Part shown: in pieces, positions 3,014 through 25,566 of the stretch
Layout: the number at the start of each line of letters is the position of its first letter
Numbering within the stretch: position 1 is the stretch's first letter
DNA from: a virus
Strand: one strand, 5' to 3'
Virus record (IMG/VR): IMGVR_UViG_3300021131_000468
Location: 1 to 25,828 of that record
Length of the DNA: 25,828 bases
Notes under the pieces: model-generated
Told to the model about the DNA's origin: nothing
What the model saw: the letters and a program-made list of their open reading frames with translations, nothing else
Databases searched by the model: none
Made by a program: the position numbers and the translations under genes

Positions 3014-3042
3014 TTGACTGGTGCATACCTGGTGTGTATAGT
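3014..3042 (+). promoter_or_regulatory. Strong sigma70-like promoter for small RNA
   Basis: TTGACT (3014-3019), exactly 17 bp, TATAGT (3037-3042): 5/6 matches to each consensus hexamer. Spacing predicts initiation at about 3049, a G that is also the first base of a perfect hairpin. Confidence 0.7.
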
Positions 3043-3048
3043 GGGAAT

Positions 3049-3129
3049 GTAGGAAAATCCTACTGTAGTACTGGACTTCCGAATCCAAGACTGGCATTAA
3101 GCCCCCCACCCGAAACTGGGGGGTTTTTT
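3049..3129 (+). ncRNA. Candidate phage small RNA, about 80 nt
   Basis: A complete small transcription unit: promoter (3014-3042), predicted 5' end at 3049, 5' hairpin GTAGGA-AAA-TCCTAC (3049-3063), a middle stem TGGA/TCCA exposing CTTCCGAA, and a strong intrinsic terminator (3102-3129). No start codon with a ribosome-binding site lies inside. The exposed pyrimidine/purine loop could base-pair with a target or bind a protein. It resembles a regulatory or decoy sRNA in build; no match to a known family was recognised. A degenerate tRNA was considered and rejected because the T-loop does not fit. Confidence 0.55.
3102..3129 (+). terminator. Strong intrinsic terminator of the small RNA
   Basis: CCCCCCA (3102-3108) pairs with TGGGGGG (3117-3123) across an 8-nt loop, followed by six T (3124-3129). 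The G/C-only stem plus T-run is the best terminator in the window. Confidence 0.9.
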
Positions 3130-3138
3130 GCTGTGTGG

Positions 3139-3144
3139 TATTAT
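3139..3144 (+). promoter_or_regulatory. -10 TATTAT placed for a leaderless start
   Basis: TGGTATTAT-N6-ATG: the -10 hexamer ends exactly 6 nt before the ATG at 3151, so transcription would begin at or next to the A of the start codon. No ribosome-binding site exists between. The same TGGTATYAT-N6-ATG layout recurs at 3363-3375. No clear -35. Confidence 0.55.
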
Positions 3145-3150
3145 TTGTGT

Positions 3151-3294
3151 ATGTGTAACACTTGTGGATGTGGCGAATTTTCTAATGCTCACGGTATGCC
3201 AACCGTTGAAGCTGCCAACGTTAAGTTTGAGACTACGGACAACTTGGCTACTAAGCCAGTAGCGCAGTCTCCAGAAGTACTCGCTAAAAAGTAA
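3151..3294 (+). CDS. Leaderless Cys-rich peptide (47 aa)
   Basis: A 47-aa protein starting MCNTCGCGEF, then a polar Thr/Ala/Lys-rich tail (TVEAANVKFETTDNLATK). The cluster of three cysteines in the first seven residues (C2, C5, C7) suggests metal or redox binding. MCxxCGCG-type N-termini are familiar in short actinobacterial and phage peptides, of unknown role. The frame is open upstream to 3001, but the upstream part runs through the sRNA and terminator, so the ATG at 3151 is chosen. This fits a leaderless start from the -10 at 3139-3144. A hairpin begins 2 bp after the stop. Confidence 0.6.
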   Translation: MCNTCGCGEFSNAHGMPTVEAANVKFETTDNLATKPVAQSPEVLAKK

Positions 3295-8613: not shown

Positions 8614-9081
8614 ATGCCACGTACAGGTAGAGGTGGCGCCCGTGAGGGAACGCCAGGAACAGCATACGGAAACCGTACTGACCTTAACGCAGCAATGCCA
8701 GTCCAGGCCGCTACTGGTCAAGGCTACGGAGAAGCAGGTGCACAACAGGCTGCTCAACGTGCAATACCCGTAGCACCACAACAGGTATCGGTTGCGCCAG
8801 CGCAAGCACCAGCACAAGCAGCGCCAGCACAACCAACAACGATTACTGGTCAGATGCCATCATTGCCATCTTACCCAGGTGAATTAAAATTTGACCATCC
8901 TACTGATCGACCAGATGAACCAATTACAGCAGGATTGCCTATTGGCGATGGTGCTGGTCCAGAAGCAATGCACACATTTACTCCTACAGTTGGAAGAAGT
9001 TTAGACATGATGGCCAGTGCTCCAGGTGCTTCAGCAATGTTAATGGACTTAGCACGGGCGGCTAGAAACATAGGTCTATAA
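8614..9081 (+). CDS. Pro/Ala/Gln-rich virion-associated protein (155 aa)
   Basis: No domain recognised. The basic N-terminus (MPRTGRGGAREGTPGTAYGN) resembles that of short proteins following portal genes in metagenomic actinophages. Residues 50-80 are a low-complexity Ala/Pro/Gln linker. The C-terminal part (90-155) holds GELKFDHPTDRPDEPI and a small helix AMLMDLARAARNIGL. It begins 3 bp after the portal stop and overlaps the giant gene by TAATG. Base composition changes inside this gene, near 8875, from GC-rich to AT-rich codons. Probably a head or portal accessory, by location only. Confidence 0.7.
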   Translation: MPRTGRGGAREGTPGTAYGNRTDLNAAMPVQAATGQGYGEAGAQQAAQRAIPVAPQQVSVAPAQAPAQAAPAQPTTITGQMPSLPSYPGELKFDHPTDRPDEPITAGLPIGDGAGPEAMHTFTPTVGRSLDMMASAPGASAMLMDLARAARNIGL

Positions 9082-12000
9082 TGCCTTACGGACTTGGTTC
9101 AGCAACAGGAGCTAATGATTATCTCTCTAATGTTAATAACCCTAATTGGTACATTGATAATCTTGTTAAAAACAATCCTACGTTAAAAGCAGACCCGTAT
9201 TTAGTCACGTCTTTAACGCAACAATTCAAAGATTCTACTAACCCTCAGCAACTTGCACATTCAACTTTGATGGCTAAGTATTTGCACGGTACTGCAGATC
9301 AAATTGGTCTTTCTAATTTGTATCCAAGACCCGACACAGTTAATGATGCTCCTGCATACCGAGCACCTGACAAAGCATGGCAAAGGGCTAACAGTACAGG
9401 TAATTGGTTTTCACAACTTCTGCAACCAGTAGGCAATGTTTTAGGTAGCGCCATTGGTGGTTTTGTTGGTGCAATTTCAACTCCTGAAGCTGGAAAGCAA
9501 GTAGGTAATTTTTGGAGAGCAGCACCTAGTGATATTGCAGGTGGGCTTGCTACCAATGTTGCCAAACTTGGAATTACTGCTAACCGTGTTGTTGGAGGAA
9601 ACCTTAATGCTATTAACGCTGGCAAGGGGGGATTACCTGCATGGCAATGGCAAGACCCATTGTATTTGGGTCAAGCAATTCATCAAACATTAAGCGACGT
9701 TGGTAAATTGCCTTTTATCGCTGATGCATACATGACTAATTTGAAATCTCAAATTAACAAAAATGGTATTGGTACTGCATTGGCTCAACAATATGGCAAT
9801 CTTCTTAGCGGTTATCTTGTTGGTGGTGCTTTGGGCGCTGCTGGTGGAGAAGGCGGAACAGTACTTGACGCTGCCGCTCAAGCAGGAGAAACCGCTTCTG
9901 CTCAAGACGCTCAAATAATTGAATCTTTGACACAAAAATTAAAAACAGAAGGTTCTCTCACGCCAGAAGAACAGGCTGCTTTAGAAAAAACCAAACAAGA
10001 CCTTTTGACTCGCGACCCAAATGCGCTTCACAAATCTGCATATCAAAATGGCATAAATGAATTTAAGACTCAGTACCCAACAGAGCATGGCATCCTTGAA
10101 CAAGACTTGGCTCGTGGTTCAATTACTCAACAAGAATATGATCAGGCTATTGCCAAAGGCATTTCTAGTGAATCACAGCCAGCCTTTAATGCTGCTTCAG
10201 AAGCAATTAATAGTGAACAAGCAGTTACTAGCGCCGCTCAAGATGCTATTCAAGCAAGCAAATTAAACGCTTCGCGATCTACGTTTAACAAAGTTGTTGA
10301 ACTAGCAAGTTACCCAATCACAGTTCCAATAGCAGGTATTGCAAAAATTATTCGCGCTCTTGGAAGCACGCCAGCACAAATAACGTATCTTCTTGGTGCA
10401 CTTCAAGCACAAAACAATCCGGAAGATGCTTACATCTGGCAGTTGGCTGAACAGGGCAAAGTGCTTAACGCTGATGGCACAACACAAGACCTTGGCATTG
10501 AAATTGCTAACTCACTTGGCATTGACGGTATGTGGGGTACGTCTGTACGTGACCTTGTAGACGTTGGTCTTAAATGGATTGTTGATGATCCTATTGCTGC
10601 TTTTTCTCGTATTGTAAAAGAATCCCGTGGCGTTTACGGTATGACTGGCGTACTTAATAAATGGTTTAGTGGTACTGGTATTAGAGAAGTAGGCGACGTA
10701 GAACGTGCTTACGCACAATATTCCAGCGTTCGACGTGCCGTTAGTTGGATTGCTACACATGGAGCTGCGGCAATTAATCAACGATTTGGTGCTTTGTTTC
10801 TAGGTCCAAAACTTATTGAAAAATTAGCAGCAGCACAAACGGATTCTCAAGTTCTTGCAGTTCTTGAAGAAGCATCACAAGCAATTAACATGGTTGACCG
10901 CGTTACCACTATGCCATCTATGAGTTGGTACACTTTGGCTAAGACTGGCTTAACAGGAGAAGTTGGAAAAGAATTTTCTACTATTGCCGATGCTCTTGCT
11001 TCGCCGATTATGCCAACTGACAAAATGATTGAAGCCATTGAAAAAGAAACTGGCGTTGATATTACTCCTCACGATGTTGGTTACGCCGCCGGTGGTGTTG
11101 CCGAACGAGCAAAGATTCTTTTAAGTCAACGCCTTCGCCGTCAATTTTCAATGAAACAAATGATTATTGAAGGTGGTCGTGTTACTGACCGTGAATTAGT
11201 TGTTGGCTCAGTACGCAGCGCCGAGGGTATTCGTAAGTTTTTAGTTAATAACTTTATGAGTCACGATTTTGCAAACATGGTTACTGATCAATTAATTCGA
11301 TACGGTGATGACCCTGTTAAATGGAATAACATTTACAACAATGCTATGCGTATTTCTCTTTACCGTCGCATGCTTGCTTCAACTGCTCATTCTGATTTTG
11401 GAATCTTTGCTGATGTCATGGGACCAGAAATTGATGACAAAATTTATCAGTACACAGGTGTAACTGGTGGTGGGACTTCGCTGGATGAAGCTTTGGTTGC
11501 TGACCCCAACACAGCATCAGACCGTACCATTGACCCTGAAACTGGTAAGATGCATAATTCTGCAGTAGACGATAAACAACTTGGTAGACGCATGCTTCCT
11601 AACGAACGAAACATGAGGATGCTTTCACGAGAGATTGCTAAAGTTGCTCAAAACGTTAATAAATCTGGTGGAGATGATTTACTTCGTAGTGCAGAAAAAG
11701 ACTTTGAAGTTTACCGTCAGTTGGCTCACACTGCCAACGTTGAAGCAGAAACGTACCTTAAGAATTTTGTACCCGAAGATCGTTCTGAATTTGCAACTAT
11801 AGAAGAAAAAGTAACGGAAACTTTACCAACTGAAATACCTAAGTCTGAGTTTTACCACGGATCATCTACTGAAATAAGTGGTGTTCTTGGAGATGGCATT
11901 GGAGAAGGACGTGCCGCACAAAATCTTTTTGGTCCTGGTTTTTATACTACAGATAATCCTGAAATTGCTCGCAGTTACACGGGTAAGGGTGCAAAGGGAG

Positions 12001-15000
12001 CAGAAAGAGAAGGAAAACTTAACAAAACTGTTCATGGTATTCGTTGGACAGGTGAAACCCCACCTAACCTTGTTGACCTTGAACAAGCGGCACCAAAAGA
12101 ATTTCGAGATTCCTTTAATCAATATCTTAATGAAAATAATTGGCCTAGCAATTCAGAATTAGATACAAAATATTTAGAAGATTTCAAACAATTATTGAAT
12201 GACCCAACTACAACAGGTTCTAAAATTTATTCTGAATTTAGAAGCCTTCTTGCTGATGCTCATTTGCCAATGAATGATGCAGACGAAATATTACAAGACA
12301 TTGCATACAGCATGAACGAAAAAGGTATTGATGGATTGCGTTACCAAGGTGGTAAATATGCTGCTAAAGGTAACGGCATACTTCACGAAGCTCGCATTTT
12401 CTTTGACACAGATAAACTTTCTATTGAATCCTCAACGCCAGCAAATAAAACGTTTGAAAAAACTGTTACAAAAAATCCACCTGCTTTAGATGGATACATG
12501 GCTAAATCTAAAGAAATACTTGATCGTGCCAATCAAATGCTTAAAGGCGATGAATTAAAGGGGATGACTAAAGCCGAGCGTTACGCTACGGTTGTTAAAT
12601 ACCTTGATGGTGAATTAATCAAAGCTCGTGATGCTTACGTTACCGCGTCTAAAAAGTTTGACGAATTAGCAATGATGAAGGCTGAATCAGAAAAACTATA
12701 CCAAATTTTTGGTACTACAAATGTCTTGCCTTTTCTTCAACACTTGCGCGGTGAGATGTTAGCAGTTCAAGACCTTGGCGCTGAAATGAAGGCTGCTATT
12801 TCTTCATCATACTCTAGCGAAGAAAACATTGCTAAACAAGCAAATTACATTGCTTCAACTGCCACCACCAAAGAAGCCGGTGAAGAATACAAACGTTTAT
12901 TCAACGAAGAATGGTCAACTCGCTCAAGTAGACAAGTTGGAGAAAAACTTGGCATTGGAAAACTTAACGCTGCTAAAGCCTATGAATTATGGGCAAAGAA
13001 TACTGGTATAAAACTTAAGTCTCTTGGTGATCGTGGCATGCGCAACAACTTTGATGTTGCTGTTGACTTAATGCAAGGATACCTAAACGGTTGGTTCAAA
13101 CTTCTTACTCTTGCTTCTCCTGCTTGGGCTGAACGTGTCATTGTTTCTGAAGTTATGTTGAACTCATTACGTATCGGTGGACATAATTTTACTGAAGCAA
13201 AACTCGTTCAATCTATTGCTAGACACGAAGCATACTTAGGTAAAGTTGCTATGGGTGATGTTGAGCGTAAAGCACTTCGTTCAGCAATCAGTAACATTAT
13301 TCTTGGGTTTGACACTGCATTAATCAAAACGCTTTCTGGTAAAAAGTTTGATGACTTTCTAAATTTTGCTACCAATCTTTACCTTGAAACAGATAGTCAC
13401 ATGCTTGGCGGAGTTCACTCTCAAGGCGACCTTATGGCTGAAGATGGTTTCAAGCACAATGTAGTTAATCAAGTAGTTGGCATTGAGGGCAAGGGTGCTG
13501 AAGCAAAAATCAAAACATCCAACAAAGTACTTGGTGAAACTTATACTAAGTACATGGCTGGTGATTCTTATGCCGGAGCTGCACTATACGAAAACATTAC
13601 TCGTGCTAGCCGAGGAACTATTTTCAAAGAAAACGCTCGTTGGTACGAAGAACAAATTGTTAAAGAAGGTCAGCGAATTTTTGATGGCAATCCTGAATTT
13701 TACATGGAGCAAGCCAAGGAAGATGCAACTAAAGTTCTTCAAGACCTTGGCAAAAAATTAACTGAAAATAATTTCAAAGTTCAATTAAAAAAATCACTTG
13801 ACGAGAAAATTCGTGAATTGGGAGGAAGGTCGTTTTCTAATCCTTCTGAACTTGCACGGTTACGTCGAGAATCTGATTATCACATGGAAGGTTTTATTTC
13901 TAGTCAACCTGCTGCATGGAGAGCAGACTTTAGGCGTGACCGTGAAGCATCGGCTAAATACCCTAATGAAAGCCCTCACACTGGTTGGGCAAAAACTTCA
14001 ACCGATCACACCATGGGTCTTTCAACTAACATTAATTCCGCTAGTGGCGTAGCAAGCGTTATTCACCCTGAGATTATTCACCAAATTGCTTCTGGCGATT
14101 TTTGGTCACAAGAACAACTGGCTAAATGGATGCGCGAACATTGGGAAAAGGATGATGCTCCTTCAGCGTTCCCTGCACACGAATACGTTGGACTTATGTC
14201 TGCTGGCAATCTAAACATTGTACGCAAATATTCTGATTGGCTACATCGAGCTTTGCTTGGAAAGATGGTTAATACTGCTAGTCGTGATCCACTTTTTGTG
14301 TGGGAAGCGTGGCAACAGTATCAGAAATTATTGCCACTTGTTGAAAAGGGCTACATGACAACGGGCGAAGCAATGGCTAAATGTCAATCTGAAGCACTTA
14401 TCAACATGAGCAAATTTGTGCACAACCCAATGGACAAAACTATTTGGGAAGAAAACATGCGTGTAGTTACTCCGTATTACTTTGCGAAGAACCAGGCTAT
14501 GCGTCGTGCCCTCCGTATGGCCGGTGACAATTTTGCAGCATTTGAAAAGTACATGAAGATTAACCTTGCCGTTACTGACTATGTTGCTCTTGCTTACAAT
14601 CAAAGTGGCATTGGTTCATTTACGTTTCCAGGTTCACAAGTAATTACAGGATTTACTAACGGTATCGTCAATAGTTGGCTTGCCGCACAGGGACTTCCAA
14701 ATTACGGCGCTGGTCAACACATGGGTCTTGAATCATCACCTGCTTCCCCAGACAGCATAATTATTACAGGGCAGACACCTGGTATTGGTGGATTTCTTGA
14801 AAACGTTATTTCAATGCCGTTTGGACCTATCGTTACCATTCCTGCTAAATACGTTTACGAACAAATGCAATACCGTATTCCTTTTATTGGCGACATAATC
14901 AAATGGGTCATTGGTCCAAACTCTATGCAGTCATCCATTGCAAGCGACTTATTCCCTAACAGCACACTCCAAAATGTCTACAAGGGCGTTTACGGACACA

Positions 15001-16142
15001 TGAATCAAAACCAAGTCAGTTCCTATCTTTCCAGTGAGCTGTATTCAATCGGTAACGAAGGTTCAAATATTTTAACCAAATACCGCAATGAAACTATTGA
15101 CACGCTTTTGAAAAATGGTCAAATTAACAAACAAAACATTAATTCTGGCGCGGCTCAACAATTAATTAATTACTACACTGCACGTAAAGTTTCTTTGTTT
15201 TTAGAAAACCCAAACAACAGAACCGATCTGCAGTCAGAAGCAAATTGGGCGACTACTTCTCTCTACGCGGCTAAGACATTAACCTCACTTGCCACACCGC
15301 TTTCTTCGGTCATTGCGTCAGACATACACGTACAAAAACAACTAGATGCTATTGCTTTAGAAAAAGACAAGAATGGCGATTTTAAGTTCCCTTCTTACAC
15401 TTTGCAAGTTGCAGAACTTCTACGTAGGTTCCCTACTGAATTGTTTAATACAGTTGCTCACACCAAAAGCCCATTTTCTACTTACTTAGAAACTATTGGA
15501 ACGGTTAAGTATGTTGAAAATCACCCACAACTTGTAAAAGAATTTCCATTTCTTTCTGCTTTTATGTCTAGTCAACAAGGTGCAGATGCAAAGTATGATC
15601 CTGTAGCATCACAGATTCTTGGTGAGTTTGCACTTCGACAAAAGGAAACCCCAACTGAATACACACAAGCAATGCGAGTTGCTGTAGGAAACTACATGTA
15701 TTACGACGTGATGCTTCCTGGCTTTCAAAAATTATATCCAGGTACATATCAAGACGGTTTAAGTTCCGCTGGTTATTACGCATGGACAGCAGCAGGGAAA
15801 TCATACGGTCAATCAATGAACAGCGCTTGGTTGTCAGAACACCTAGGTGGTAATACTTACACCGTTGCTGCTCAATCTTATACTGAATTGCAGTCTTTTA
15901 TGAAAAACCCAAGTCATGTTGCTACTTTGACTCCAGCACAAAAACAATACATTCCATTATTGTTAGATGCACGTTCAGCATGGGAAAAACAATATAAAGC
16001 AGCAGCAGGTAATACATCAGAGCAAAGTCGCTTACGTAAAAAATGGCGCGATAATTGTACTGCCGCAACAACGCTTCCTGGCTGGAAAGATGTTTCAACA
16101 ATTATTACAGGCGTATTTCGTCCACTACCCCCACCACAATAA
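9081..16142 (+). CDS. Giant virion protein with ART-like domain
   Basis: A 2353-aa protein between portal and scaffold. Residues about 920-1130 look like an ADP-ribosyltransferase domain of the polyvalent-protein type: YHGSS (925-929, His926), FGPGFYTT (950-957, Tyr955) followed by DNPEIARSYTG, and HEARIF (Glu1103), giving an H-Y-E order. Gly/Ala-rich amphipathic segments (about 112-135, 242-258) precede it, and long helical regions follow. The C-terminal third has TPYYFAKNQAMRRALRMAGD and a hydrophobic stretch near 1900-1960. Phage ART domains modify host proteins, usually after injection. Size and placement suggest an internal or ejection protein carrying an effector. T7-like RNA polymerase motifs of N4-type virion polymerase were sought and not seen. 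The base composition is AT-rich compared with portal and capsid genes. Virion location is inference. Confidence 0.8.
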   Translation: MPYGLGSATGANDYLSNVNNPNWYIDNLVKNNPTLKADPYLVTSLTQQFKDSTNPQQLAHSTLMAKYLHGTADQIGLSNLYPRPDTVNDAPAYRAPDKAWQRANSTGNWFSQLLQPVGNVLGSAIGGFVGAISTPEAGKQVGNFWRAAPSDIAGGLATNVAKLGITANRVVGGNLNAINAGKGGLPAWQWQDPLYLGQAIHQTLSDVGKLPFIADAYMTNLKSQINKNGIGTALAQQYGNLLSGYLVGGALGAAGGEGGTVLDAAAQAGETASAQDAQIIESLTQKLKTEGSLTPEEQAALEKTKQDLLTRDPNALHKSAYQNGINEFKTQYPTEHGILEQDLARGSITQQEYDQAIAKGISSESQPAFNAASEAINSEQAVTSAAQDAIQASKLNASRSTFNKVVELASYPITVPIAGIAKIIRALGSTPAQITYLLGALQAQNNPEDAYIWQLAEQGKVLNADGTTQDLGIEIANSLGIDGMWGTSVRDLVDVGLKWIVDDPIAAFSRIVKESRGVYGMTGVLNKWFSGTGIREVGDVERAYAQYSSVRRAVSWIATHGAAAINQRFGALFLGPKLIEKLAAAQTDSQVLAVLEEASQAINMVDRVTTMPSMSWYTLAKTGLTGEVGKEFSTIADALASPIMPTDKMIEAIEKETGVDITPHDVGYAAGGVAERAKILLSQRLRRQFSMKQMIIEGGRVTDRELVVGSVRSAEGIRKFLVNNFMSHDFANMVTDQLIRYGDDPVKWNNIYNNAMRISLYRRMLASTAHSDFGIFADVMGPEIDDKIYQYTGVTGGGTSLDEALVADPNTASDRTIDPETGKMHNSAVDDKQLGRRMLPNERNMRMLSREIAKVAQNVNKSGGDDLLRSAEKDFEVYRQLAHTANVEAETYLKNFVPEDRSEFATIEEKVTETLPTEIPKSEFYHGSSTEISGVLGDGIGEGRAAQNLFGPGFYTTDNPEIARSYTGKGAKGAEREGKLNKTVHGIRWTGETPPNLVDLEQAAPKEFRDSFNQYLNENNWPSNSELDTKYLEDFKQLLNDPTTTGSKIYSEFRSLLADAHLPMNDADEILQDIAYSMNEKGIDGLRYQGGKYAAKGNGILHEARIFFDTDKLSIESSTPANKTFEKTVTKNPPALDGYMAKSKEILDRANQMLKGDELKGMTKAERYATVVKYLDGELIKARDAYVTASKKFDELAMMKAESEKLYQIFGTTNVLPFLQHLRGEMLAVQDLGAEMKAAISSSYSSEENIAKQANYIASTATTKEAGEEYKRLFNEEWSTRSSRQVGEKLGIGKLNAAKAYELWAKNTGIKLKSLGDRGMRNNFDVAVDLMQGYLNGWFKLLTLASPAWAERVIVSEVMLNSLRIGGHNFTEAKLVQSIARHEAYLGKVAMGDVERKALRSAISNIILGFDTALIKTLSGKKFDDFLNFATNLYLETDSHMLGGVHSQGDLMAEDGFKHNVVNQVVGIEGKGAEAKIKTSNKVLGETYTKYMAGDSYAGAALYENITRASRGTIFKENARWYEEQIVKEGQRIFDGNPEFYMEQAKEDATKVLQDLGKKLTENNFKVQLKKSLDEKIRELGGRSFSNPSELARLRRESDYHMEGFISSQPAAWRADFRRDREASAKYPNESPHTGWAKTSTDHTMGLSTNINSASGVASVIHPEIIHQIASGDFWSQEQLAKWMREHWEKDDAPSAFPAHEYVGLMSAGNLNIVRKYSDWLHRALLGKMVNTASRDPLFVWEAWQQYQKLLPLVEKGYMTTGEAMAKCQSEALINMSKFVHNPMDKTIWEENMRVVTPYYFAKNQAMRRALRMAGDNFAAFEKYMKINLAVTDYVALAYNQSGIGSFTFPGSQVITGFTNGIVNSWLAAQGLPNYGAGQHMGLESSPASPDSIIITGQTPGIGGFLENVISMPFGPIVTIPAKYVYEQMQYRIPFIGDIIKWVIGPNSMQSSIASDLFPNSTLQNVYKGVYGHMNQNQVSSYLSSELYSIGNEGSNILTKYRNETIDTLLKNGQINKQNINSGAAQQLINYYTARKVSLFLENPNNRTDLQSEANWATTSLYAAKTLTSLATPLSSVIASDIHVQKQLDAIALEKDKNGDFKFPSYTLQVAELLRRFPTELFNTVAHTKSPFSTYLETIGTVKYVENHPQLVKEFPFLSAFMSSQQGADAKYDPVASQILGEFALRQKETPTEYTQAMRVAVGNYMYYDVMLPGFQKLYPGTYQDGLSSAGYYAWTAAGKSYGQSMNSAWLSEHLGGNTYTVAAQSYTELQSFMKNPSHVATLTPAQKQYIPLLLDARSAWEKQYKAAAGNTSEQSRLRKKWRDNCTAATTLPGWKDVSTIITGVFRPLPPPQ

Positions 16143-21659: not shown

Positions 21660-21994
21660 CCGCAACACCACACAACGTTGGACTTCACCCAGAGGACTGT
21701 TTCGGCTGTAAGGCCGCTTCTATCTCTATTGCTCCGTCTGCAATGGAGACACGTTCTAATGCCGGTGTTATTGACATGGACACAAAGAAGATGCACAAAG
21801 ACGTGGATGCTTACAGGCGTCTACGCAAAGACGGTGTGCAACCAAAGACGGTTAAAGGTTCTGCTTCGCTAGAACAACGAGCCGGATCAAAGTGGGAAAT
21901 TGAAACAGGCATGAACCTTGGTGGCGACGCCAAGGTAGGTGCTCGATACGATGCAGCTCAGGCTGCAATAAGCGCAGGAGCAACTGCTGAATGA
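21656..21994 (+). CDS. Small protein before fibre (112 aa)
   Basis: N-terminus with CFGC (15-18) and upstream His (H6, H11), a possible metal site. Then a charged helix MDTKKMHKDVDAYRRLRKDG (about 41-60), a KWEIETGMNLGG segment, and an Ala-rich end (YDAAQAAISAGATAE). No domain recognised. It overlaps both neighbours by ATGA, the second being the fibre gene, so it is expressed together with it. It might assist assembly or attachment of the fibre, but that rests on location only. Confidence 0.65.
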   Translation: MTATPHNVGLHPEDCFGCKAASISIAPSAMETRSNAGVIDMDTKKMHKDVDAYRRLRKDGVQPKTVKGSASLEQRAGSKWEIETGMNLGGDAKVGARYDAAQAAISAGATAE

Positions 21995-24900
21995 CAAATT
22001 ACCTGCTTTCAGGAACCGTTGCAGGACCTTCGGGATTCCTTAACGGCGCTGGTGTCTACGCGTACAAGGCATCTCTATTCACTTCTCCACCTACAGCAGG
22101 TCAACCTGCACCTACTGGTCTTACTCTCGGAACTGACTACTTCGGACCTGCCACTACCGGAACTCAATGGGGTGGTCCAGGGCAATGGGAACTTACCGTA
22201 ACTGCTGCGGTTAACTACTACATCGGTGTCCAATACCCAATCGGTTCTACAACCGCACAATGGTACTGGTCATTTGACGATTCGCTGACTCAAATCAAGG
22301 GAGACACTGGAACACAGGGCCCACAGGGTTATCAAGGTAATCAGGGTTATCAGGGCACACAAGGGAACCAAGGTACACAGGGTGTACAAGGTACACGTGG
22401 ATACCAAGGTTATCAAGGATACCAAGGATTTACTGGTTCACAAGGTACCCAAGGCCCACAGGGTCTTACTGGTTCACAAGGCTCACAGGGCGTTACAGGT
22501 GCCACTGGTGCGCAGGGGAACCAAGGCTACCAGGGTAACCAAGGTAACCAAGGTCTAACTGGCTCACAGGGCACACAGGGTTATCAGGGCACAACAGGTT
22601 CTACCGGTGCTCAGGGAGCTACCGGATCGACTGGAGCACAGGGAAGTACTGGTGCACAAGGTTCACAAGGTAATCAGGGCACACAGGGCAATCAAGGATT
22701 CCAAGGTAGTCAAGGTTTTCAAGGTGTACAGGGCAGTCAGGGAACCACTGGTTCTACTGGTGCCACTGGTGCACAAGGTTCAACCGGCTCGCAAGGGGCA
22801 CAGGGATACCAAGGAACTCAGGGCAACCAAGGTAACCAAGGATACCAAGGTTCTACTGGTGCCACAGGTGCACAGGGCAATCAGGGTTTTCAAGGCGTAC
22901 AAGGTAATCAAGGCTTCCAAGGTTTCCAAGGCACAACAGGCTCTACTGGCTCACAAGGTAATCAAGGATACCAAGGTAACCAAGGTTACCAAGGTTACCA
23001 AGGTTACCAAGGTGTAGTCGGAAGCATTGGACCTCAAGGTGCTGGTGGAACGTCTGCTTACTACGGTTCGTACTATTCAACATCAACACAAACATTATCC
23101 ACTGCCAACACTGGTCAAGCCATTACGTTTAATGGAACATACCAGCAAGCAGGTATTTCTGTTGCTTCTAGTTCTCGTATTACGTTTGCTTATGCCGGTC
23201 AGTACGGTATTAACTTCTCTGCTCAATTAACGCAAACAGACAATTCAAATGACCAAGTTCTTATTTGGCTACGAAAGAACGGTTCTGACGTTTCTCAGTC
23301 CAACACTGATGTGACTATGGACAAGCAAAACTCAGACAAAGTTGCTGCGTGGGAATGGCAAGTTACCGCTGCGGCTAACGATTACTTTGAAATTTACTGG
23401 ACATCTAATTCAACGTCAGTAACGCTTCTTGCCATCTCATCTCCTACCACTGGCCCAGCAATACCATCTGTAATTGCTAATGCTTACCTCATTACCGCTG
23501 CTGGTGCTACTGGTGCTCAAGGAGCACAAGGCTCACAGGGTGTTCAGGGTTATCAAGGTAATCAAGGATTCCAAGGTGTTGCCGGAACACAAGGTATTAA
23601 CGGTACGCAGGGACCACAGGGTACACAGGGCAATCAGGGTAACCAAGGATTCCAAGGTGCTAACGGTTCTAACGGTGCACAAGGATCACAAGGAGCTACA
23701 GGCTCACAGGGCAACCAAGGTTTCCAGGGAACTACCGGAGCACAGGGTTCAACAGGTGCTCAGGGAACAACTGGTGCACAAGGCTCTACAGGTGCGCAGG
23801 GTTCTACTGGAGCGCAAGGTTCTACTGGTGCTCAAGGTAACCAAGGCTTTCAAGGTGTTCAGGGTTCTACAGGTTCGCAGGGTTCTACTGGTGCACAGGG
23901 AACTCAGGGTTTCCAAGGTGCAACTGGGTCTACTGGTGCACAAGGTAGCCAAGGTTCACAAGGAGCCACCGGAGCCACTGGTGCTCAGGGTAACCAAGGG
24001 TTTCAAGGTTTCCAGGGCACGCAGGGCAACCAAGGTGCTACTGGAACTACAGGCTCGCAAGGTTCACAGGGATACCAGGGTTACCAAGGCGTACAAGGTT
24101 CACAAGGATACCAAGGTAGTCAGGGTTCAACTGGTTCACAGGGATCACAAGGTACTTCGGTTGCCCTCGCTACCGTCAGCCTCACCGCTCAGTCCGCAGC
24201 TCAAGCAGCCACAACGCTCTACACCCCTGCCTCTGACGGTCTCTTTACTATTAACTATTACGCCAAAGTCACCACCGCAGCAACGACTTCTTCAACGCTT
24301 GGTGTGTTCTCGGTCATCTCTACCGATACCGACTCCAACGTAGTTACCTCAGTTGGTCAATCAACTCAGCAGAACTCTTTGACTACTGGGTTTATCTCCG
24401 GCTCAATTACCGTCTACGCCAAAGCCTCAACCCCAATCCAATACTCACTCGCCTACGCCTCATCTGGGGCTACCGCTATGCAGTACGAATTGCGAGTTGT
24501 GGTGGCTGGAACTACTGCTCCGTCATCTACTGGCACAGTCTCATCATTCAATGGTCGTACTGGTGCGGTTACTCCGGCAAGTGGTGATTACGGCGCTGCG
24601 ACTGGTGTTATGCCTACCACTTCTTATCTTGGTGGAAAGAACTGGGTAATTAACGGTGGTATGGACATTTGGCAACGAGCAACGACATACTCAACTGCTG
24701 GTTCTGGTTACTTTACGGCTGACCGTTGGAACATAAACTTGGCTGGAACAACTACGTTCTCCCAATCAACAGACGTTCCTACCGCAATAGCAACTTCTTA
24801 TTCTTTGCAGTGGGTGACTGGTGCTTCATCTTCCTATGGTCAGTATTATCAAGCATTAGAAAACGCCAACGTAATACCGCTTCGTGGTCAAACAATGACT

Positions 24901-25566
24901 TTAAGCGCTTATGTAAAAACAGCCGGTTCTTACGCTGGCAACATTTTGTTTGGCGTAACTTATTCAACAAGCACAGATGCATCGGGTTCGGTGACAACGC
25001 CACTTGCTTCAAGCACATACGCAGGTTCTTCATACACTTCATGGGGATTAGTAACTTGCACCTTTACCGTTCCATCAAACGCTTACGGATTAAAAGTCAA
25101 TGTATTGCCCGATACCGCACAGGCTTCTGGCGTAACAATGAAGATGACCGGAGTCCAACTTGAAATCGGTTCTACGGCCACAGCCTTCTCACGTGCTGGT
25201 GGAACTATTCAAGGTGAGTTAGCAGCTTGTCAGAGGTACTACTACCGTTGGACTGCAAATGCAACTTACTCTCGTTATCCAGTATTAGGTCTTGCGGCTA
25301 ACACCACACAAGTTTTCTTTCCATCCATTACTCCAGTTACTTTGCGAGCAGTACCTACTGCACTTGAAAGCAGTTCAAACTGGCGTGTCTTTGATGGAGC
25401 AAATGTTGTAACTGGCGCAACTCTTTCAATGATTGTTTCAACAGAAGCAGAACTGCAACCATATTTAATTGCAACAGTATCAAGCGGATTAACTCAATAC
25501 AGGCCGTATATGGTTACAGCCAATAATGATGCTTCGGCCTACATCGGACTAAGTGCGGAACTCTAA
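21991..25566 (+). CDS. Collagen-like/C1q-like tail fibre (1191 aa)
   Basis: Probable receptor-binding fibre. An N-terminal module (1-102) is followed by Gly-X-Y block 1 (about 103-350), a beta-sandwich (about 351-504; YAGQYGINFSAQL...VLIWLRKNGSDV) like C1q/TNF domains, Gly-X-Y block 2 (505-722), a second beta-sandwich (723-845), and SFNGRTGAVT (about 850), a motif common near phage fibre tips. The C-terminal part has NWVINGGMDIWQR, a carbohydrate-binding-like section with YSLQWVTGASS and LSAYVKTAG, then VQLEIGSTATAF...CQRYYYRW, typical of fibre ends. The collagen blocks use Gln or Thr in most Y positions and almost no charged residues (K103, D105 and one Arg). The triple-stranded fibre would display sugar-binding tips. 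Last large gene before the window end; ATGA overlap upstream, TAATG overlap downstream. Confidence 0.9.
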   Translation: MTNYLLSGTVAGPSGFLNGAGVYAYKASLFTSPPTAGQPAPTGLTLGTDYFGPATTGTQWGGPGQWELTVTAAVNYYIGVQYPIGSTTAQWYWSFDDSLTQIKGDTGTQGPQGYQGNQGYQGTQGNQGTQGVQGTRGYQGYQGYQGFTGSQGTQGPQGLTGSQGSQGVTGATGAQGNQGYQGNQGNQGLTGSQGTQGYQGTTGSTGAQGATGSTGAQGSTGAQGSQGNQGTQGNQGFQGSQGFQGVQGSQGTTGSTGATGAQGSTGSQGAQGYQGTQGNQGNQGYQGSTGATGAQGNQGFQGVQGNQGFQGFQGTTGSTGSQGNQGYQGNQGYQGYQGYQGVVGSIGPQGAGGTSAYYGSYYSTSTQTLSTANTGQAITFNGTYQQAGISVASSSRITFAYAGQYGINFSAQLTQTDNSNDQVLIWLRKNGSDVSQSNTDVTMDKQNSDKVAAWEWQVTAAANDYFEIYWTSNSTSVTLLAISSPTTGPAIPSVIANAYLITAAGATGAQGAQGSQGVQGYQGNQGFQGVAGTQGINGTQGPQGTQGNQGNQGFQGANGSNGAQGSQGATGSQGNQGFQGTTGAQGSTGAQGTTGAQGSTGAQGSTGAQGSTGAQGNQGFQGVQGSTGSQGSTGAQGTQGFQGATGSTGAQGSQGSQGATGATGAQGNQGFQGFQGTQGNQGATGTTGSQGSQGYQGYQGVQGSQGYQGSQGSTGSQGSQGTSVALATVSLTAQSAAQAATTLYTPASDGLFTINYYAKVTTAATTSSTLGVFSVISTDTDSNVVTSVGQSTQQNSLTTGFISGSITVYAKASTPIQYSLAYASSGATAMQYELRVVVAGTTAPSSTGTVSSFNGRTGAVTPASGDYGAATGVMPTTSYLGGKNWVINGGMDIWQRATTYSTAGSGYFTADRWNINLAGTTTFSQSTDVPTAIATSYSLQWVTGASSSYGQYYQALENANVIPLRGQTMTLSAYVKTAGSYAGNILFGVTYSTSTDASGSVTTPLASSTYAGSSYTSWGLVTCTFTVPSNAYGLKVNVLPDTAQASGVTMKMTGVQLEIGSTATAFSRAGGTIQGELAACQRYYYRWTANATYSRYPVLGLAANTTQVFFPSITPVTLRAVPTALESSSNWRVFDGANVVTGATLSMIVSTEAELQPYLIATVSSGLTQYRPYMVTANNDASAYIGLSAEL
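22297..23040 (+). repeat. Collagen-coding repeat block 1
   Basis: Imperfect 9-bp (Gly-X-Gln) and 18-bp repeats within the fibre gene, for example GGTTACCAA in tandem near 22984-23012. Synonymous codons vary from unit to unit, so the protein repeat is much better conserved than the DNA. Confidence 0.9.
23503..24156 (+). repeat. Collagen-coding repeat block 2
   Basis: The second run of Gly-X-Y coding units, separated from block 1 by the first C1q-like module. It is richer in GSTGAQ and GTTGAQ units (a near-tandem run at about 23754-23835) than block 1, which favours GYQ and GNQ. No charged codons occur in the block. Prone to length change by recombination. Confidence 0.9.

Follow-up and report, generated by a model that had tools for sequence, protein, structure and literature searches.

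Results

A Predicted sRNA Unit Lies Upstream of the Head Genes

A unit at positions 3014–3129 (+ strand) of the window, by which we mean the whole 25,828-nt stretch of viral DNA analyzed, is probably (about 0.7) an autonomous phage sRNA gene, or cassette, whose RNA would most likely act in trans. The product is very probably a genuine small regulatory RNA whose general kind is known; the unit is ordinary in kind and new as a family. The following features were recognized:

3014–3042, +, sigma-70-type promoter TTGACT-17-TATAGT; the −10 is kept in all close relatives
3049–3063, +, 5′ hairpin at the predicted first base, GTAGGA (3049–3054), AAA loop, TCCTAC (3058–3063); pairing kept despite sequence change in L010, L029, and L074
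3072–3087, +, weak middle hairpin, TGGA (3072–3075), loop CTTCCGAA (3076–3083), TCCA (3084–3087); absent from some relatives
3077–3082, +, exposed UUCCGA, putative seed or binding site; invariant in this unit class and enriched vs. shuffles
3099–3129, +, intrinsic terminator, stem 3099–3108/3117–3126 with six G-C core pairs, loop CCCGAAAC, T-run 3124–3129

The initial annotation, made from this sequence by itself, had described a near-consensus promoter with a 17-bp spacer, a perfect 6-bp hairpin opening at the predicted first base, a middle loop and an RNA of about 80 nt with no evident coding content, and all of these were recovered. The −35 (3014–3019) and −10 (3037–3042) elements match the consensus at 10 of 12 positions, and the predicted +1 (3049) lies six bases past the −10, the same N6 spacing as at the leaderless genes of these phages. 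The predicted RNA (3049–3129) is 81 nt long, with a minimum folding energy of −31 kcal/mol (z −3.5), and its middle loop is exposed. The terminator, previously called GC-only, is present with its G-C core, but the stem is extended by A-U and G-U pairs.

The only ATG near the start (3047) runs straight into TAG, and no ATG, GTG, or TTG is found between 3049 and the terminator, so that the predicted RNA contains no usable start codon. An open frame from 3001 through the RNA into the downstream Cys-motif gene was rejected as not conserved, because L009 differs by 14 nt within the RNA, which shifts the frame. The unit overlaps no convincing gene on the opposite strand. Judged by sequence only, it thus has its own promoter, its own intrinsic terminator and no coding content, as an independently transcribed sRNA should. 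Promoters matching at least 10 of 12 positions are not rare (5 in the window); such a promoter with a terminator of at least 8 pairs in the next 110 nt occurs at a single place in the window, and none of 200 dinucleotide-preserving shuffles contained one. No Rfam family reached its gathering threshold in the window. The Phe_leader attenuator (RF01859) was rejected, with 22.6 bits vs. the 55 required (E 0.62) and no leader ORF.

The window covers part of the genome of an uncultivated phage, with a beta-clamp-like gene (317–919), an HslV-like peptidase (3375), terminase (4795), portal (6724), and major head protein (19035); no tRNA was found in it. Eighty IMG/VR loci encoding terminase relatives were kept as its relatives (L numbers). 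The closest named phage records are Streptomyces phages, with about 31% identity over part of the terminase. Given contig names that point to lake metagenomes, the Streptomyces-phage terminases and the leaderless genes, we infer a freshwater phage group with an actinobacterial host. Assigning the host from the terminase match was rejected: the only relative on a genome contig is a Gammaproteobacteria MAG contig, and its 49% identity is insufficient. Three other genes were noted in passing. The 317–919 product is a short DNA polymerase beta-clamp-like protein (201 aa) with a Pfam match to the central domain only. A single 2353-codon ORF (9081–16142) lies between head genes, and its stretch YHGSSTEISG...GPGFYTTDNPEIARSYTG looks by eye like an ADP-ribosyltransferase-type domain. 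The long protein encoded at 21991–25566, with many collagen-like G-x-Q/T-G repeats, is probably a tail or head fiber.

The 5′ Hairpin, Terminator, and UUCCGA Are Kept in Relatives

The same RNA is recognizable in L001, L002, L003, L006, L008, L009, L027, L042/L044, and L035/L038, with the 5′ hairpin, UUCCGA and the terminator with loop ACCCGAAAC retained. Across ten aligned relatives, 97.7% of the cells in the 5′ hairpin and terminator are paired, and the terminator carries one compensatory change (C-G to U-A). None of 13 aligned homologues in this class departs from the exposed UUCCGA. More distant units keep the 5′ hairpin with other sequence (GTGGGAAAATCCCAC in L010, GTGCCAAAGTGGCAC in L029, GTACCAAGTTGGTAC in L074). 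L006, L009, and L035 have lost the middle hairpin by deletion; therefore UUCCGA, and not its stem, is the conserved part. As to whether homologues break the hairpins, which the initial annotation had named as one way to refute the unit, the 5′ hairpin and terminator are kept but the middle hairpin is lost in some, and within the closest class the comparison says little because most pairs there do not vary.

In this class the terminator loop ACCCGAAAC is as invariant as the middle UUCCGA, which is unusual for a terminator loop and would fit a decoy whose CCGAA-type loops (middle and terminator) sequester a host or phage RNA-binding protein. The terminator loop differs, however, in other classes that still carry UUCCG, and no known protein motif was recognized. 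We consider such a decoy unlikely; it would still be an autonomous sRNA, and overlaps the preferred reading in all except the pairing step.

The −35 element is missing in L001, L002, L003, L006, and L027, in which the −10 with a TG-rich upstream remains; expression may therefore be weak in these five close relatives. A complete TTGACA-17-TATAGT is found in L022, L029, L035, L053, and L057. Loss of the −35 in some relatives could indicate a passive start-stop element, or a relic without RNA function, but the RNA body has hardly changed in several of the relatives concerned (L001, L002, L003) and the UUCCG motif recurs in otherwise different bodies, and we consider either reading very unlikely.

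Two further groups of homologues were distinguished. In L022, L047, L053, L055, L057, and L068 the hairpins and terminator are others and A-x-UUCCGA is unchanged; in L018, L029, and L074, and also in L034, the 5′ hairpin is joined to another body. The sRNA-like body in this slot was located in L018 (4428–4530), L029 (862–965), L034 (about 880–985), and L074 (2934–3040), and comprises a 5′ hairpin, a GGGA..CCC hairpin and a conserved GCCTC-AC-CTTGATA-like stretch. A model built from the unit class of the window matches other promoter–terminator units with E 0.003–0.02 (L043, L028, L078, L010, L012).

Cassettes Recur Between the Same Landmarks

At least one promoter/short-RNA/terminator unit was found, by script and by eye, between the same landmarks in about 42 of 46 related regions. 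The census covered 46 distinct ncRNA-to-terminase regions; a script found units in 35 of them, and inspection by eye added seven (L001, L002, L003, L013, L022, L047, L053). Between the two landmarks a unit is absent from L045 and L050, and none was found in L064. A second cassette class combines a CCUUCCG-like stretch with a 5′ hairpin and a terminator and is placed ∼540 nt before the terminase in the following loci:

L025, L031, L033, L039, L043, L046, L055, L063, L073, L074, L075

The same flanks hold a cassette of the second class in some phages and none in others (L055 has one, L042 is without), and both kinds co-occur in some phages. The unit also moves relative to the small genes, standing after the Cys-motif gene in L034 and L074. 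Several second-class terminator loops have an AACTGG-like sequence in common.

Of 28 cassette bodies, 13 contain UUCCG, where shuffles gave an expectation of 0.57; after near-duplicates were collapsed, 8 of 19 contain it (0.42 expected). The bodies were delimited by hand and are partly related by descent, and so not independent. When GTAGGAAAATCCTAC was used as bait for other phages, the matches read outside this phage group lay in unrelated contexts, and it was discarded as a probe.

We read these patterns as relatives that carry, swap, move, or lack such cassettes, in the manner of an “RNA moron.” Such gain, loss, and movement of cassettes point to a trans-acting role.

The Next Gene Has Its Own Leaderless Promoter

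The gene that follows the unit is a small Cys-motif ORF (3151–3294) in a leaderless arrangement, with its ATG at 3151:

3133–3151, +, extended −10 promoter of the next gene, TGG TATTAT TTGTGT ATG; TGn-TAnnnT-N6-ATG in most relatives here

This arrangement stands directly past the sRNA terminator in most relatives, and the small gene behind it is another one in L003 and L027. The very regular TGn-TAnnnT-N6-ATG was also noted at the starts of Cys-motif and holin-like genes in relatives, often right at the end of the sRNA terminator.

The lambda pR′–tR′ late leader (“6S RNA”) likewise consists of a promoter, a short RNA and a terminator just ahead of the late genes. By analogy, the promoter of the unit could drive the downstream genes, with the terminator as an attenuator overcome by an antiterminator. 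The unit precedes the head genes and points the same way, and many relatives have a second such unit ∼540 nt ahead of the terminase, which would suit a late-operon leader. Unlike in lambda, a leaderless promoter serving the following gene stands right past the terminator, as it does in most relatives; moreover, the unit shifts relative to the small genes (past the Cys-motif gene in L034 and L074), and L045 and L050 do without it. With a promoter of its own ahead of the next gene, the sRNA is insulated as a unit, which lowers the likelihood of an antitermination-leader role; we judge that role improbable.

A Large Structured ncRNA Adjoins the sRNA Unit

On the other side of the unit, non-coding blocks at 2358–2448 and 2853–2972 show much wider conservation than the DNA around them (BLAST vs. 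relatives). They fall within or overlap:

about 2345–2961, −, large structured ncRNA, adjoining the sRNA unit and no part of it
2961–2973, −, −10 element TACACT and predicted ncRNA start (2961); T, A and the final T of TAnnnT invariant in 25 sequences

The A at the predicted start is also invariant. The 5′ domain covaries strongly: it has 22 consensus pairs with 99.8% of cells paired, and nine pairs show two-sided changes (58 such cells); none of these three values was reached in 500 shuffles. The minus strand is favored because G-U pairs fit that orientation and the folding energy is lower on this strand in 21 of 23 sequences. No local covariation was found in the conserved block 2345–2450, about 400 nt farther downstream. 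The predicted size is roughly 430–620 nt, with an approximate 3′ end.

The ncRNA is found in L009, L010, L013, L018, L022, L025, L031, L042, L046, L057, L074, L075, and other relatives, and its core pattern in 55 viral stretches, many on contigs already among the relatives. No Rfam match at gathering was obtained in the window or in 11 relatives, and none that was relevant with a permissive search; covariance models of GOLLD, ROOL, and other large Rfam RNAs did not match it. It resembles GOLLD and ROOL solely in being a large phage RNA (PMC12286853). On this comparative evidence it is a structured RNA that nearly all phages of the group have conserved and that Rfam lacks.

The predicted starts of the two RNAs are adjacent and divergent, about 90 nt apart, which raises the question of whether the sRNA is a partner or antisense of the ncRNA that regulates by base-pairing. 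The two transcripts do not overlap, however, and predicted cognate pairing was no better than with shuffled RNA or with the ncRNA of other phages in most of 12 phages, L053 giving the only clear excess. Pairing between the two was rejected as a candidate, and a partnership appears extremely unlikely.

Discussion

The preferred reading remains that of an autonomous sRNA cassette. We infer that the unit is transcribed and that its RNA acts in trans. In the proposed mechanism, host RNA polymerase would start at 3049 and stop at 3129, yielding an ∼80-nt non-coding RNA from a cassette lodged between the large ncRNA, which is divergent, on one side and the leaderless gene on the other. The ends of this RNA would be shielded by the 5′ hairpin and the terminator, which would leave (C)UUCCG(A) displayed as a single strand; this stretch may contact another RNA or a protein. 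It might pair with purine-rich sites, e.g., the Shine-Dalgarno sequences of host (or competing-phage) mRNAs, and so block their translation; pairing of the UUCCG stretch with Shine-Dalgarno-like sites is our guess. CUUCC can pair with GGAAG, or with GGGAG using one wobble. The full loop complement, UUCGGAA, does not occur on the + strand of the window. In one relative's cassette AUCACCUCC matches what we take to be the 3′ tail of 16S rRNA, as presumably does ATCACCTCC in the L074 cassette body. A more specific version, in which the phage group as a whole would bear interchangeable cassettes that share an anti-Shine-Dalgarno-like seed (CUUCC/UUCCG) and dampen Shine-Dalgarno-led host mRNAs while several leaderless phage genes escape, is speculative and quite unlikely.

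Gram-positive C-rich-motif sRNAs target Shine-Dalgarno sites. The unit has a similar exposed C/U-rich stretch between hairpins and terminator, but its motif is UUCCG(A) and a Shine-Dalgarno target is only guessed. The E. coli O157 prophage sRNAs EcOnc01/AgvB and EcOnc02/AsxR, located in moron sites, are 51–60 nt long, bind Hfq and have a conserved ∼42-nt 3′ region (PMC4104026). Like them, the units described here would be short phage sRNAs with starts of their own, at conserved places of the late region, in versions that are related but not identical from one phage to another; unlike them, the unit is ∼80 nt long and the common part is a short exposed UUCCG, so that the likeness is drawn with no claim of sequence relation. 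Lambda OOP RNA is also a small phage RNA from its own promoter and acts as antisense to cII, and there is precedent for other phage sRNAs (review PMC12197685); in contrast to OOP, no convincing opposite-strand gene is overlapped here. Our literature search returned general phage-sRNA precedents only, and no description of this unit.

The neighboring ncRNA is more surprising than the sRNA and a better candidate for new biology; of all features at this locus it may be the most novel. Most known phage sRNAs come from E. coli prophages and a handful of model phages, and an sRNA cassette family that shares a recurrent motif, as in these uncultivated lake phages, would offer a testable set of natural variants.
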